From Bacteroidales bacterium (GTDB lineage Bacteria > Bacteroidota > Bacteroidia > Bacteroidales > UBA1715), in contig JAQICB010000116.1 in assembly GCA_027858745.1 (NCBI GenBank), positions 1 to 58,629 of the forward strand: a stretch of 58,629 bases of DNA. The letters are read 5' to 3'. The number at the start of each line of letters is the position of its first letter. The stretch's first letter is position 1. Made by a program: the position numbers and the translations under genes. Shown here piece after piece: positions 41,517 to 46,757 of the stretch. Under the pieces are notes generated by a model, which searched no databases, had not been told where the DNA came from, and worked only from the letters and a program-made list of their open reading frames with translations.

Positions 41517-42581
41517 TTATGCATTTGCAATATATTGTGTTATCCAATCACCGACATCAGAAGTTGACTTGGGATTTTCTTTTGAAATATCTTCCGTTAC
41601 AACACCTGAATCCAATGATTTCAGCACCGCTTCACGAATTAAATCTGCTTCTTTATTGAGTTTAAATGCATATTCAAACATCATTGCAGCAGATAAAATA
41701 GTAGCAATAGGATTTGCAATATTTTTTCCGGTTGCTTGTGGATACGAACCATGAATCGGCTCAAAAACGCTGGTATGCAAACCAACAGATGCTGAAGGCA
41801 ATAAACCTAAAGAACCGGTAATAACCGAAGCTTCATCAGTTAAAATATCGCCAAACATATTTTCAGTTACCATAACATCGAAATTTTTGGGCCACTGAAT
41901 AATTTGCATTGCCGCATTATCTACAAACATATATTGTGTTTCCACCTCCGGATATTTTGGTTCAATTTCCTGTGCAATTTGTCTCCACAATCGAGACGTT
42001 TCAAGCACATTAGCTTTATCGACAACCGTCAGTTTTTTGTTACGTTTCATCGCATATTCGTACGCCAAGGTAACAATTCGCTCAATTTCCTCACGAGTAT
42101 ATACGCAATTATCAAAGGCAGTATTTCCGTTATCTTTACGACCTTTCTCGCCAAAATAAATACCACCGGTCAATTCGCGAATACAAAGAAAATTTGCACC
42201 ATCAACCAAATCTTGTCTTAATGGCGATTTATGAAGTAATGAAGGAAACGTTTCAACCGGACGTAAATTAGCAAATAAACCCAATTGTTTTCTCATTCGC
42301 AATAAACCTTGTTCCGGACGAACCGAAGCTGAAGGGTCATTATCAAATTTTGGATGTCCAACAGCACCAAACAACACGGCATCAGACTCCATACATACTT
42401 TATGTGTTTCTTCAGGGTATGGGTCTCCAACAGCATCGATTGCCGCAGCTCCGGTAATTGCTTCGGTATAGGTAAAACTATGTCCAAATTTATTTTCAAT
42501 TGCTTTTGTAACTTTTAAGGCTTCTTGAATTATTTCCGGACCGATTCCATCACCGGCAAGGACTGCTATTTTTGCTTTCAT
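41517..42581 (-). CDS. leuB: 3-isopropylmalate dehydrogenase
   Basis: LeuB oxidises and decarboxylates 3-isopropylmalate to 2-oxoisocaproate with NAD+. The 354-residue protein has [12 protein letters not shown] at the N-terminus, the substrate arginine region [28 protein letters not shown] with the catalytic lysine, and [20 protein letters not shown], the isocitrate/isopropylmalate dehydrogenase signature. It is the last gene of leuACDB, 32 bases after leuD and directly before a terminator. Confidence 0.97.
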
Positions 42582-42613: not shown

Positions 42614-43207
42614 TTATTTTCTTGTTTTTTCGAACTCCTCTATTTCAGGTAATTTATTGATTAAATAATCGATATCATCAAAACCATTCAACAAACAATC
42701 TTTTTTATATGGATTAATGTCAAATGATTCAGATTTTCCCGAAGAGATAATCGTAAAAGTTTGATTTGGCAAATCAAGTTTAAATTCAGCTTCATTATTA
42801 TGTTCAATTTCACGAAATATTTCAGACAAAAACGATTCGGAAATTTGAACCGGTAACACACCATTGTTGAGTACATTGTTTTTAAAAATATCGGCAAAAA
42901 AGCTTGAAACAACTACACGAAAACCATAATCGGCAATAGCCCAGGCTGCATGCTCACGAGAAGAGCCACAACCAAAATTCTTACCACCGACTAAAATAGA
43001 ACCGGTATATTTCGCATCATTTAATGGAAAAGAAGGAATTGGTTGATTGTTATTATCATATCTCCAATCACGAAACAGATTATCTCCAAATCCGATTTTA
43101 TCAGTTGCTTTTAAAAAACGTGCCGGAATAATTTGGTCAGTATCAATTTCCTCAATAGGAATTGGAACGGCACGAGAAACGATTGTATTAATTTTTTCTA
43201 TTGGCAT
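42614..43207 (-). CDS. leuD: 3-isopropylmalate dehydratase small subunit
   Basis: The 197-residue small subunit of the isomerase that turns 2-isopropylmalate into 3-isopropylmalate. It has the swivel-domain motifs [12 protein letters not shown] and [18 protein letters not shown], the latter near residue 75. It works with LeuC, encoded 36 bases upstream on the same transcript. Length and motifs are normal. The start is ATG. Confidence 0.97.
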
Positions 43208-43243: not shown

Positions 43244-44641
43244 TTATAAAAACTCTCGCGGATCGGTAATTTTTCCGGTAATAATAGCAGCTGCTGCCGT
43301 TAACGGACTTGCAAGAATAGTGCGAGAGCCGGGACCTTGACGACCTTCAAAATTTCTGTTTGAAGTTGCTACGCAATATTTACCCGGAGGAACTTTATCA
43401 TCATTCATGGCCAAACATGAAGAACAGCCCGGTTCACGAAGTTCGACACCTGCTTCTTCAAGAATTTTATCAATTCCCTCCTCTTTTATTTGTTGAGCTA
43501 CCAAGTAAGAACCCGGAACAACATACGTGTTTATATGAGGAGCTTTTGTTCTTCCCTTAAGAATAGACGCTACCAATCGGAAGTCTTCAATTCGACCATT
43601 TGTACAACTCCCAATAAAAACCCAATCAATTTCTTTTCCAAGTAATTGTTGATTCTCCTCAAAGTTCATATACTTAAGTGCTTTTTTGAATGTTTCCTGA
43701 GAAGAAGGTTCAATAGATGAAACGGAAGGAATAGAATCAGCTATTTTCATTCCCAATCCGGGATTTGTTCCATACGTTACCATAGGAGTGATATCGGCTG
43801 ATTCGAAAGTATATTCTTTATCAAACACCGCATCATCGTCAGAATACAATTCTTTCCATTTTTCGACTGCAGCATCAAAATCAGCACCTTGCGGAGCATA
43901 TTTTCTTCCTTTCACATATTCGAACGTGGTTTGGTCCGGAGCAATCATACCGCCTCGAGCACCAAGTTCGATACTCATATTACACACCGTCATACGAGCT
44001 TCCATGGTCATATTTCTGATAGCAGAACCGGCAAATTCAATAAAATACCCGGTTGCTCCACTTGCAGTTAATTGAGAAAGCACGTATAAAATAAGATCTT
44101 TCGACGTTACACCTTTTCCCAATTCACCATTAATAATTATGCGCATTTTCTTCGGTTTCGGCTGCAAAACACACTGACTTGCAAACACCATTTCCACCTC
44201 ACTTGTTCCAACACCAAATGCAACAGAACCAAATGCTCCGTGAGTAGACGTGTGACTATCGCCACACACAATTGTCATACCCGGCTGCGTATATCCTAAT
44301 TCCGGACCAACAACGTGAACAATTCCGTTATACACATCGCCAAGACCATAATAGGTAATTCCATGACGAGTACTGTTATCTTTTAGTTTTTCTACTTGAA
44401 GTGCAGACAATTGTTCCTTAATAGGCAAATGCTGATTTTCCGTTGGAATATTATGATCGGCAGTTGCCGTAATTTGATCAGGACGAAACACTTTTCTTCC
44501 TCTGTTCTCTAAGCCTGAAAAAGCCTGAGGACTAGTCACCTCATGAATAAATTGACGGTCGATATATAAAATACTCGGACCATCAGAAATCTCAGAAACA
44601 ACATGACTGTCCCAAATTTTATCGAATAAGGTTTTTCCCAT
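43244..44641 (-). CDS. leuC: 3-isopropylmalate dehydratase large subunit
   Basis: The 465-residue aconitase-family subunit that carries the 4Fe-4S cluster. Cluster cysteines lie in [13 protein letters not shown] and GCSSCLAMN; the substrate-binding [13 protein letters not shown] region is intact near residue 130. It pairs with LeuD. It starts 25 bases after leuA, and the order leuA-leuC-leuD-leuB is usual in Bacteroidota. Expression should follow the attenuator upstream of leuA. Confidence 0.97.
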
Positions 44642-44666: not shown

Positions 44667-46163
44667 CTATTCTATTACTTTACTTATCGCATCAACAAAA
44701 GCTTCAGCCGAAGCAGTTACAATATCGGTATCAACTCCGAAGCCGTAAAAATAATTATTTTCGCATTCAATTTGAACACTTACTCGACCAAAATCATCAC
44801 TACCACCTGCAAAGCCCTGAATAAGAAACTCTTCCAGTTTTATTTTTTTATTAAATATTTTTTTGATTGCGGAATAAGCAGCATCAACCGGTCCATCTCC
44901 CATCGCAGATTCAGTTCTTGTCTCATTTTGAATTTCAAGAGACACAGTAGCGGTCGGAATCATAGACTTACCACAAATAACCTGTAAAGAATTAATTTTG
45001 ATAGCTCGTTTTTGAGCTCGTTTTTCCTTACCGACCAATACCCCTAAATCATCATCATTAACCTCTTTTTTCAAATCGGCAACTTTCAAAAATTCTTGAT
45101 AGGCACTATCTAATTCCTCCTGTTGGAGTGCATAACCTAAAATTTCTAAGCGATGACGAAGAGCTGCTCGGCCACTACGAGCAGTTAATACTATAGAAGA
45201 TTCATTAACACCAACATCTTTGGGGTCGATAATCTCATAATTTTCACGCATTTTCAAGACACCATCTTGATGAATTCCGGAAGAATGAGCAAATGCATTT
45301 TTACCCACAATAGCTTTATTTGCTTGCACCGGACTTTTCATTAATCGTTGTACCAATCGGCTTGTTTGAAATAAATGTGGGGTGTTGATATTCGTTTCAA
45401 GACCTAAATTATGGCTTTTAATTGCCATTACAACCTCCTCAAGAGCAGTATTTCCGGCACGTTCACCAACACCGTTTATAGTTACCTCAACTTGTCGTGC
45501 ACCATTAATGACACCGGAAACCGTATTAGCCGTAGCCATACCTAAATCATTATGACAATGAGTAGAAATAATAGCCTTATCAATATTAGGAACATTATCC
45601 ATTAAATACTTAATTTTTGCACCAAATTCATGTGGCAAACAATATCCGGTAGTATCGGGAATATTAACAACCGTTGCTCCGGCAGCAATAATTTGTTCAA
45701 CCACACGAGCCAAAAATTCATTATCCGTTCGTCCTGCATCTTCACAATAGAACTCAACATCTTCCACAAAAGACTTTGCATATTTCACGGCATCAATACC
45801 ACGCTCCAAAATCTTTTCGGGAGTCGATTGTAATTTATGATGAATATGATAAAATGAGGTGCCTATTCCGGTATGAATACGTGGATGCTTTGCAAATTTT
45901 AATGCATCGGCAGCAACTTCAATATCTTTTTTTACCGCACGCGTTAAACCACAGATAGTTGGATTGGACACGGCTTTAGATATTTGCACAACCGATTCAA
46001 AATCTCCCGGACTCGAAACAGGAAATCCTGCCTCAATAACATCAACTCCGAGCAGTTCTAAAGCTTTTGCGATCTCAATTTTCTCCACCATGTTTAATTG
46101 ATTTCCGGGAGCCTGCTCCCCATCTCTAAGTGTTGTATCAAACACAAAAACTTTATCATTCAT
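44667..46163 (-). CDS. leuA: 2-isopropylmalate synthase
   Basis: LeuA condenses acetyl-CoA with 2-oxoisovalerate, the first committed step of leucine synthesis. The 498-residue protein has [16 protein letters not shown] (residues 10-25), [16 protein letters not shown] (metal-binding HxH), and [15 protein letters not shown]. The C-terminal ~120 residues form the regulatory domain that binds leucine in relatives, so feedback inhibition is expected in addition to the leader control. The full-length form (about 500 residues) separates it from the shorter homocitrate synthase type. Confidence 0.96.
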
Positions 46164-46194: not shown

Positions 46195-46227
46195 AAAAAA
46201 ACCCTCTTAGCACAAGCAAAGAGGGTT
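46195..46227 (-). terminator. Attenuator terminator in the leu leader
   Basis: On the minus strand a perfect 9-bp stem (46219-46227 with 46200-46208) has a 10-base loop and is followed by seven T, all upstream of the leuA ATG (46163). A terminator placed between promoter and first gene, after a short leader gene, is the hallmark of attenuation. Confidence 0.88.
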
Positions 46228-46262
46228 TATATATTTTAAAATCATATATACAATTCCCTCTC
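46219..46262 (-). promoter_or_regulatory. Leu leader antiterminator hairpin
   Basis: On the minus strand GAGAGGG (46256-46262) can pair over 7 bp with CCCTCTT (46219-46225), the first arm of the terminator. Inside the same hairpin a TATATAT/ATATATA stem of 7 bp closes on a 9-base loop. The two hairpins cannot form together, so this one would prevent termination. Confidence 0.75.
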
Positions 46263-46266
46263 ACTA

Positions 46267-46311
46267 CTAAGCGAGGAGGATAATTGATAATATGATAATT
46301 GTTTTGTTCAT
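46267..46311 (-). CDS. Leu operon leader peptide (Ile/Leu-rich)
   Basis: A 14-codon open frame reading MNKTIIILSIILLA with stop TAG, followed at once by two more stops in frame (TAG TGA). Five of 14 codons are isoleucine (ATT, ATC, ATA, ATT, ATC) and three are leucine (TTA, CTC, CTC). It begins about 15 bases after a TATATTTG box and ends 4 bases before the antiterminator arm. A ribosome stalled on these codons would leave GAGAGGG free to form the antiterminator. Translation is inferred, not shown. Confidence 0.78.
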   Translation of the reverse strand: MNKTIIILSIILLA

Positions 46312-46325
46312 ATATTTCTTTTGTG

Positions 46326-46357
46326 CAAATATATAATGTTTTTATTTATTGACGCAA
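46326..46357 (-). promoter_or_regulatory. Promoter of the leu operon
   Basis: On the minus strand TTG (46355-46357) and TATATTTG (46326-46333) are separated by 21 bases, fitting the Bacteroidota -33 TTTG/TTG and -7 TAnnTTTG arrangement. Transcription would start just before the leader peptide. Confidence 0.65.
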
Positions 46358-46382: not shown

Positions 46383-46757
46383 TTATATTTTCTGCTCAAC
46401 AAATGTGAAAGTCAATTCCACAATTTGTTCATATTCCTCACCGGCTTCTTTCATATCATCGTCCTCTTCAACATACCACCATTCAACCTTCACTTCATAT
46501 TTATTTAGTTTTTGTGCTGCCTCAAGACGCTGCAATATTTCCAATAAAAATTTTGAAGATGCGGTATTATAATATTCCAGATTAACACGAAAAATAATAC
46601 AAGAAACATCCGAGGACAATATTTCTGACAATTCTTCAATTATTGGAACATAAAAATCTTTTGCATTTTCGGGAAATGAACGTCCCGATATTTCAAAAAC
46701 AGATGTTTCTGAATCAAAAATAACCTTTGGAGTATATGACGTTGATTGAATATCCAT
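46383..46757 (-). CDS. SiaC-family regulatory phosphoprotein (DUF1987)
   Basis: A 124-residue protein of the DUF1987/SiaC family. Recognisable parts are STSYTPKVIFD at the N-terminus, the FEISGRSFPENAKDFYVPI stretch near residue 20, and FRVNLEYYNTASSKFLLEIL, which contains the Thr/Ser phosphorylation region of the family. In Pseudomonas SiaC is switched by a kinase (SiaB) and phosphatase (SiaA) and controls a diguanylate cyclase. No such partners are adjacent here. It lies directly upstream of the leu promoter and has its own stop 25 bases before it. Confidence 0.87.
   Translation of the reverse strand: MDIQSTSYTPKVIFDSETSVFEISGRSFPENAKDFYVPIIEELSEILSSDVSCIIFRVNLEYYNTASSKFLLEILQRLEAAQKLNKYEVKVEWWYVEEDDDMKEAGEEYEQIVELTFTFVEQKI

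Follow-up and report, generated by a model that had tools for sequence, protein, structure and literature searches.

A probable leucine- and isoleucine-sensing attenuator upstream of leuACDB in Bacteroidales

Introduction

The leuABCD operon of Escherichia coli and Salmonella is controlled by the leuL attenuator, whose leader peptide is not known to use control codons other than those for leucine, and the ilvGMEDA leader brings more than one branched-chain amino acid together in a single leader. Bacteroid-trp is a leader of trp genes. The leader of the ilv-leu attenuator of S. aureus is described as Leu-rich and as also containing three Ile residues (PMC5794164). The LEU element of Actinobacteria is described as a short frame ahead of leuA with consecutive Leu codons; it is said to form a pseudoknot in which these codons pair with the Shine-Dalgarno box to make the base stem, and the account of its structure mentions no terminator (PMC1262725). 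Within the phylum of interest here, Bacteroid-trp RNA (RF01692) is tabulated as a Bacteroidetes motif that is likely cis-regulatory (PMC2864571, Table 1), and strong clues for leader-peptide attenuation upstream of amino acid biosynthesis operons are reported for Flavobacterium psychrophilum, section 19 of that paper naming pheA and hisG elements and no leu leader (PMC9723704).

Here we describe a leader in a contig of 58,629 nucleotides from a Bacteroidales bacterium (JAQICB010000116.1, assembly GCA_027858745.1), the whole of which we call the window. Like leuL, it combines a leader peptide carrying regulatory codons with competing hairpins upstream of leuA; unlike leuL, it has both Ile and Leu codons and a Bacteroidota-type promoter. 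It shares with the ilvGMEDA and S. aureus leaders the combination of several branched-chain amino acids, but those leaders precede ilv genes, whereas this one precedes leuACDB alone, and its Ile codons are consistent with isoleucine synthesis by way of citramalate. The LEU element also places Leu codons in a short frame before leuA, but differs in its pseudoknot and Shine-Dalgarno pairing. Bacteroid-trp belongs to a different operon, and the window leader has no Rfam match. F. psychrophilum belongs to the same phylum, but a leader of the window's plan was not found at 17 leuA loci outside Bacteroidales. A search of open-access articles found no description of a leu leader of this plan in Bacteroidales. 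Ribosome-mediated attenuators are a known kind; in this putative member the link between control codons and the wiring of the pathway is unusually clear.

Results

Anatomy of the leader and its operon

Along the minus strand from 46357 to 46195 lie, in order, a Bacteroidota-type promoter (the consensus in this phylum being TTTG/TAnnTTTG), a leader frame, the hairpin arms and a terminator, with leuACDB next. The leader is flanked by a promoter, predicted by motif, and a biosynthetic operon. A same-strand open frame (46383-46757) lies upstream and ends some 70 nt short of the leader ATG, at 46383. The features are as follows.

46355-46357, minus strand: TTG, a -33-like promoter element 21 nt 5' of the -7 box, from sequence
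46326-46333, minus strand: -7 box TATATTTG, a sequence motif that fits TAnnTTTG
46267-46311, minus strand: leader frame MNKTIIILSIILLA, 14 codons and a stop, with five Ile and three Leu codons; ATG at 46311, stop at 46269-46267
46251-46286, minus strand: 1:2 hairpin with ATT ATC CTC CTC in its 5' arm; folding -14.5 kcal/mol, z -4.0
46256-46262, minus strand: arm 2, GAGAGGG, starting 4 nt past the leader stop codon, from sequence
46219-46262, minus strand: 2:3 antiterminator hairpin; folding -13.2 kcal/mol, z -3.2
46219-46225, minus strand: arm 3, CCCTCTT, common to antiterminator and terminator, from sequence and folding
46195-46228, minus strand: 3:4 intrinsic terminator, hairpin 46228-46199 and seven T at 46201-46195; folding -16.8 kcal/mol, z -5.5
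44667-46163, minus strand: leuA, 2-isopropylmalate synthase, ATG at 46163; TIGR00973, 689.7 bits (cut-off 598.7)
43244-44641, minus strand: leuC; TIGR00170, 645.3 bits (cut-off 560.25)
42614-43207, minus strand: leuD; TIGR00171, 192.5 bits (cut-off 116.25)
41517-42581, minus strand: leuB; TIGR00169, 459.1 bits (cut-off 353.2)

Arm 1 of the 1:2 hairpin contains the final Ile and Leu codons of the frame (46284-46275). For each of the 1:2 hairpin, the antiterminator and the terminator, none of 200 dinucleotide shuffles was as stable, and since the three hairpins share arms, folding predicts that they are mutually exclusive. An earlier sequence-only reading had proposed the TTG and TATATTTG promoter elements, the frame MNKTIIILSIILLA with its five Ile and three Leu codons, GAGAGGG and CCCTCTT, and all of these lie on the minus strand where it had put them. 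It was also right that arm 3 serves both the antiterminator and the terminator, making the two exclusive, which folding and arm covariation bear out, and the imperfect pairing that it suggested between CTCCTC and GAGAGGG appears in the 1:2 hairpin. Its stem lengths need revision: the terminator has the seven T that it counted, but its stem is 10 bp with an inner 2 bp rather than 9 bp, and the outer 7 bp of the antiterminator enclose an A/U stem of 8 bp, not 7.

Conservation and covariation in Bacteroidales

LeuA searches matched 40 of 60 relatives at E <= 0.001 (four of these only weakly) and 94 of 218 genomes of the order Bacteroidales at E <= 1e-30. The start region of leuA was taken from 99 Bacteroidales genomes; G026, G103, G132, G142, G150 and G151, with strong LeuA matches that were fragments or of CimA level only, were left out. 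Our leader finder gave no credit to Leu or Ile codons, and eight leaders were set by hand (G001, G002, G005, G013, G020, G078, G169 and G172). For G020, the automatic choice was a different frame with one Leu and two Ile codons; we used its Leu frame because L085 has a similar one. The leaders of G020 (L140) and L085 are alike and differ from the others, with a short Arg/Leu peptide and different arm sequences.

Leaders of the same plan were found upstream of leuA in 66 of the 99 genomes, including all 14 searched from the window's family (G000-G013, G000 being the window's genome) and, among named records, Parabacteroides, Tannerella and Paludibacter. The other 33 have no such leader at leuA: 22 gave no candidate, and 11 finder matches were judged not leader-like and set aside (G022, G055, G100, G101, G118, G144, G163, G212, G216, G220 and G227). 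In 12 of these 33 genomes an ilvC-like end, its C-terminus judged by eye, lies at most about 190 nt before leuA, and 16 of the 58 genomes with cimA in the leu operon are among the leaderless. Outside the order, 17 leuA loci yielded no candidate leader of this plan; they come from other orders of the class and are those of the other-order genomes, among 90 genomes searched, with a LeuA match at E <= 1e-100. At no fewer than five of these loci, leuB or ilvC immediately precedes leuA.

Leu and Ile together make up 0.42 of the residues of the 66 leaders when these are read in frame; the remaining frames give 0.21 and 0.09. Each of the six Leu and three Ile codons is used, ATT accounting for 171 of the 245 Ile codons. 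A short, presumably translated frame with codons for the products of the pathway recurs in relatives.

A first test of arm complementarity by swapping arms between groups, in which the arms also covaried, took leaders that had been picked partly by their arm 2 pairing, and for this reason we repeated it with a choice blind to arm 2. This blind choice gave a leader in 63 of the 99 genomes, with the same frame in 58 of the 60 shared with the main table of leaders; its doubtful frames are those of G005 and of G022, G100 and G227, the last three outside the main table. Over 37 family-level groups (each family represented by a single genome, except that the window's family contributed its four genera as separate groups), arm 2 was more complementary to its own arm 3 (20.0) than to swapped ones (15.6), a difference reached in none of 5000 permutations. 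Swap tests replaced pair counting on a MAFFT alignment because arm 2 of different genera fell into different registers in the alignment. The 1:2 hairpin has a fold z below -1 in 21 of the 37 groups. In 50 of 63 genomes, TAnnTTTG is present in the 60 nt that precede the leader ATG, where shuffled sequence would have it in 7%. The window leader is more than a chance arrangement: relatives have the same plan, and its arms covary. The sequence-only reading had named conserved Leu and Ile codons and compensatory stem changes in relatives as the signs to look for, and relatives have both.

Two further observations concern these loci. Just past the leader stop (about 46266-46235 in the window), GYATG or GTGTG is present in 23 of 63 leaders (shuffled expectation 12%) and may be a polymerase pause site. 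Contig JAJDIA010000049.1 (L097, L099; 14277 bases) holds two inverted leuA copies with like flanks, perhaps an assembly palindrome.

A probable citramalate route to isoleucine through LeuCDB

LeuC, LeuD and LeuB also act on citramalate on the way to isoleucine. IlvA and CimA are described as alternative first enzymes for isoleucine (PMC9026213). In 58 of the 99 genomes, the stretch taken past leuA contains a cimA gene, usually in the order leuA-leuC-leuD-cimA-leuB. In the nearest relative, a frame of 124 amino acids (L031:6597-6971) is found between leuD and leuB, the place of cimA in other families.

The window's genome has a cimA-like gene on another contig (G000:C50:7528-9066). The best of 13 families for its protein is NCBIfam NF042433, with 657.1 bits, under the equivalog cut-off of 950. 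Among solved structures, the Leptospira citramalate synthase scores 399.7 bits and the next best 173.2, with isopropylmalate synthases at 160.9 bits or less. We predict that it encodes a CimA-like citramalate synthase of the Leptospira type.

We looked for IlvA (threonine dehydratase), using TIGR01127 for the window's genome and TIGR02079 for a set of 44 genomes. In the window's genome neither model found it (69 bits with TIGR01127, cut-off 378.75; 67 bits with TIGR02079), and TIGR02079 gave at most 72 bits in the 13 tested genomes of the window's family. All 13 cimA-negative genomes have IlvA at 288.8 bits or more, 11 of them over the TIGR02079 cut-off and two under it (G044, 315.0 bits; G037, 288.8 bits). 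The cut-off is passed by just one of the 31 cimA-positive genomes, G041; scores of about 175 bits were obtained for G160 and G231, and no more than 75 for the rest. The absence of cimA was established with a CimA query in G020, G037, G213 and seven further genomes; for G044, G139 and G220, which enter the IlvA count only, it comes from the 218-genome LeuA search alone, which in G069 overlooked a fragment of cimA. Across these 44 Bacteroidales genomes, CimA and IlvA almost exclude each other. Because a CimA-like gene is present and IlvA is undetectable, isoleucine synthesis in the window's organism most likely runs through LeuCDB.

Isoleucine codons and gene order

We classed the leaders by gene content, with five left unclassed because the contig ends before the gene order is known (G023, G066, G082, G188 and G215). 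Leaders with cimA in the operon have a median of 4.5 Ile codons (range 2-7, n=42), and those with leuCD(B) downstream and cimA elsewhere a median of 4 (range 1-5, n=5; the window has 5). Where leuA stands alone (11 leaders) or cimA is absent (3), the median is 1 (range 0-3, n=14). Nine of the 11 leuA-alone leaders come from the window's family, and for these nine the gene order was read over 1.5 kb downstream (3 kb in named contigs).

The first and last classes differ in Ile codons with a Mann-Whitney p of 1.6e-8, computed over leaders. Like the other p values that count leaders or families, it overstates the case, since related genomes are not independent observations. Leaving out the hand-set leaders preserves the difference (39 vs 12; medians 5 and 1; p 1.1e-7), as does removing the window's family from the second group, either by itself (42 vs 5, p 1.1e-4) or together with G020 (42 vs 4, p 4e-4). 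For the share Ile/(Ile+Leu), 24 families compared with 5 groups give p 3e-4. Leu codons are slightly more numerous in the leuA-alone/no-cimA set (p 0.004).

On the LeuA tree the gene-order class changes six times. Its supported branches provide five independent pairs; the average numbers are 4.0 pairs in agreement with the rule, 0.5 against it and 0.6 showing no difference. The median sign-test p is 0.125, and fewer than six pairs cannot reach 0.05. Three leaders are exceptions to the rule: G012 (leuCD downstream, 1 Ile), which is grouped with the leuA-alone genomes, G006 (leuA alone, 3 Ile) and G185 (cimA in the operon, 2 Ile). The association between Ile codons and gene content is clear, although the formal power to test it is low; that the codons follow the citramalate route is for now a proposal.

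Within the window's family, genera g3 and g4 have leuA alone, except for G012; MKTFCLDILLLLLVSVR and MTHTNNILLCLLLTM are examples of their leaders. leuC was found elsewhere in eight of the nine leuA-alone genomes of the family and was not found in G007 (79% complete). Inspection by eye of eight stretches upstream of the detached leuC in g3 and g4 found no leader there.

A second leader at ilvD

The enzyme encoded by ilvD is common to valine, isoleucine and leucine synthesis. An attenuator-like leader precedes this gene in the window's genome (L229:1229-1371, G000:C68), with a Val-rich peptide, MIMKNLLNIVLVVVVVISEMK, an antiterminator of 11-bp pairing (-18.9 kcal/mol, z -3.8, its stability equalled by 1 of 200 shuffles) and a terminator of -15.1 kcal/mol (z -6.1). 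The many Val codons fit an enzyme shared by the three pathways. We rejected the idea that the leuA leader is common to ilvD, which lies on another contig with this leader of its own.

Discussion

Proposed mechanism

The anatomy of the leader, its conservation, the covariation of its arms and the gene content of its genome make it very probable that this is a ribosome-mediated transcription attenuator sensing charged tRNA-Leu and charged tRNA-Ile. Its construction resembles that of classical attenuators in the control codons of the frame, the exclusive antiterminator and terminator, and the position between promoter and operon; the 1:2 hairpin is clear in the window but in only 21 of the 37 groups. 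RNA polymerase would transcribe the leader and the 1:2 hairpin while a ribosome begins translation at 46311. With leucine and isoleucine ample, the ribosome would run on to the stop codon at 46269. Only 4 nt separate this stop from arm 2 (46262-46256), and judged by ribosome footprints the ribosome should therefore cover that arm. Arm 3 would then pair with arm 4 and transcription would stop near 46195. With either amino acid short, the ribosome would stall on the Ile or Leu codons (46299-46275), opening arm 1 and freeing arm 2, which would pair with arm 3 and allow read-through into leuACDB. That the frame is translated, that ribosomes stall on it and that read-through responds to either amino acid are expectations of this model.

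Retention of the Ile codons would follow from the second role of LeuC, LeuD and LeuB, in the citramalate route to isoleucine, in organisms that have CimA and lack IlvA. This gives a reason for the suggestion of the earlier reading that shortage of isoleucine, as well as of leucine, opens the operon. The earlier reading remarked that only leucine genes follow the leader; this is correct for the operon but misleading for the pathway, since LeuCDB is common to both routes. The citramalate role of LeuCDB is the likely answer to why Ile codons precede an operon of leucine genes only.

Alternative explanations

The attenuator could sense leucine only, its Ile codons being incidental to short, A+T-rich hydrophobic frames. 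In the window it is the Leu codons that stand closest to the stop, ATT predominates among the Ile codons, and the independent contrasts are few. Yet all three Ile codons are used, and the number of Ile codons drops to 0-3 where LeuCDB is outside leader control or cimA is absent. The drop occurs at similar regional G+C too (0.31 in G160, with no Ile codon), although G020, also with none, has 0.45. The gene content moreover indicates that the window's organism needs LeuCDB for isoleucine. We consider sensing of leucine alone unlikely.

Two other readings would dispense with a sensing leader peptide altogether. The terminator might merely end the upstream gene (46383-46757), next to a short frame arisen by chance, as the same strand and the short distance to the leader ATG would allow; but the leader persists in relatives whose upstream genes differ, most leaders have a promoter box immediately before them, and covariation of arm 2 with arm 3 is needless for such an element. 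On these three grounds we rejected this reading, which we hold to be highly improbable. Alternative terminator and antiterminator folding is equally a property of T-boxes and other ligand-binding RNAs, but a single one of the three frames shows the enrichment in Leu and Ile. At gathering score, Rfam gave no match in the window and nine related loci, RF01692 and RF01743 (Leu/phe leader) being among the families covered. A T-box or other catalogued RNA was rejected on this result, and there is very little chance that the element is a ligand-binding RNA rather than a translated leader.

Significance

Returning to the two-amino-acid attenuator, we think it fairly probable that control codons follow pathway wiring in evolution: with CimA and LeuCDB under the leader, both Leu and Ile codons are used, and where leuA is detached, or IlvA serves in place of a lost cimA, the leader becomes Leu-only. 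The repeated drop in Ile codons is a testable natural experiment on the evolution of attenuator specificity. Leader codon make-up could also predict pathway use, Ile codons before leuCDB pointing to the citramalate route. Found at leuA across many Bacteroidales families and matching no Rfam family, the leader would add a common regulatory element for the order. If the proposed mechanism is true, this leu attenuator would watch two end products, with one enzyme set common to two pathways.
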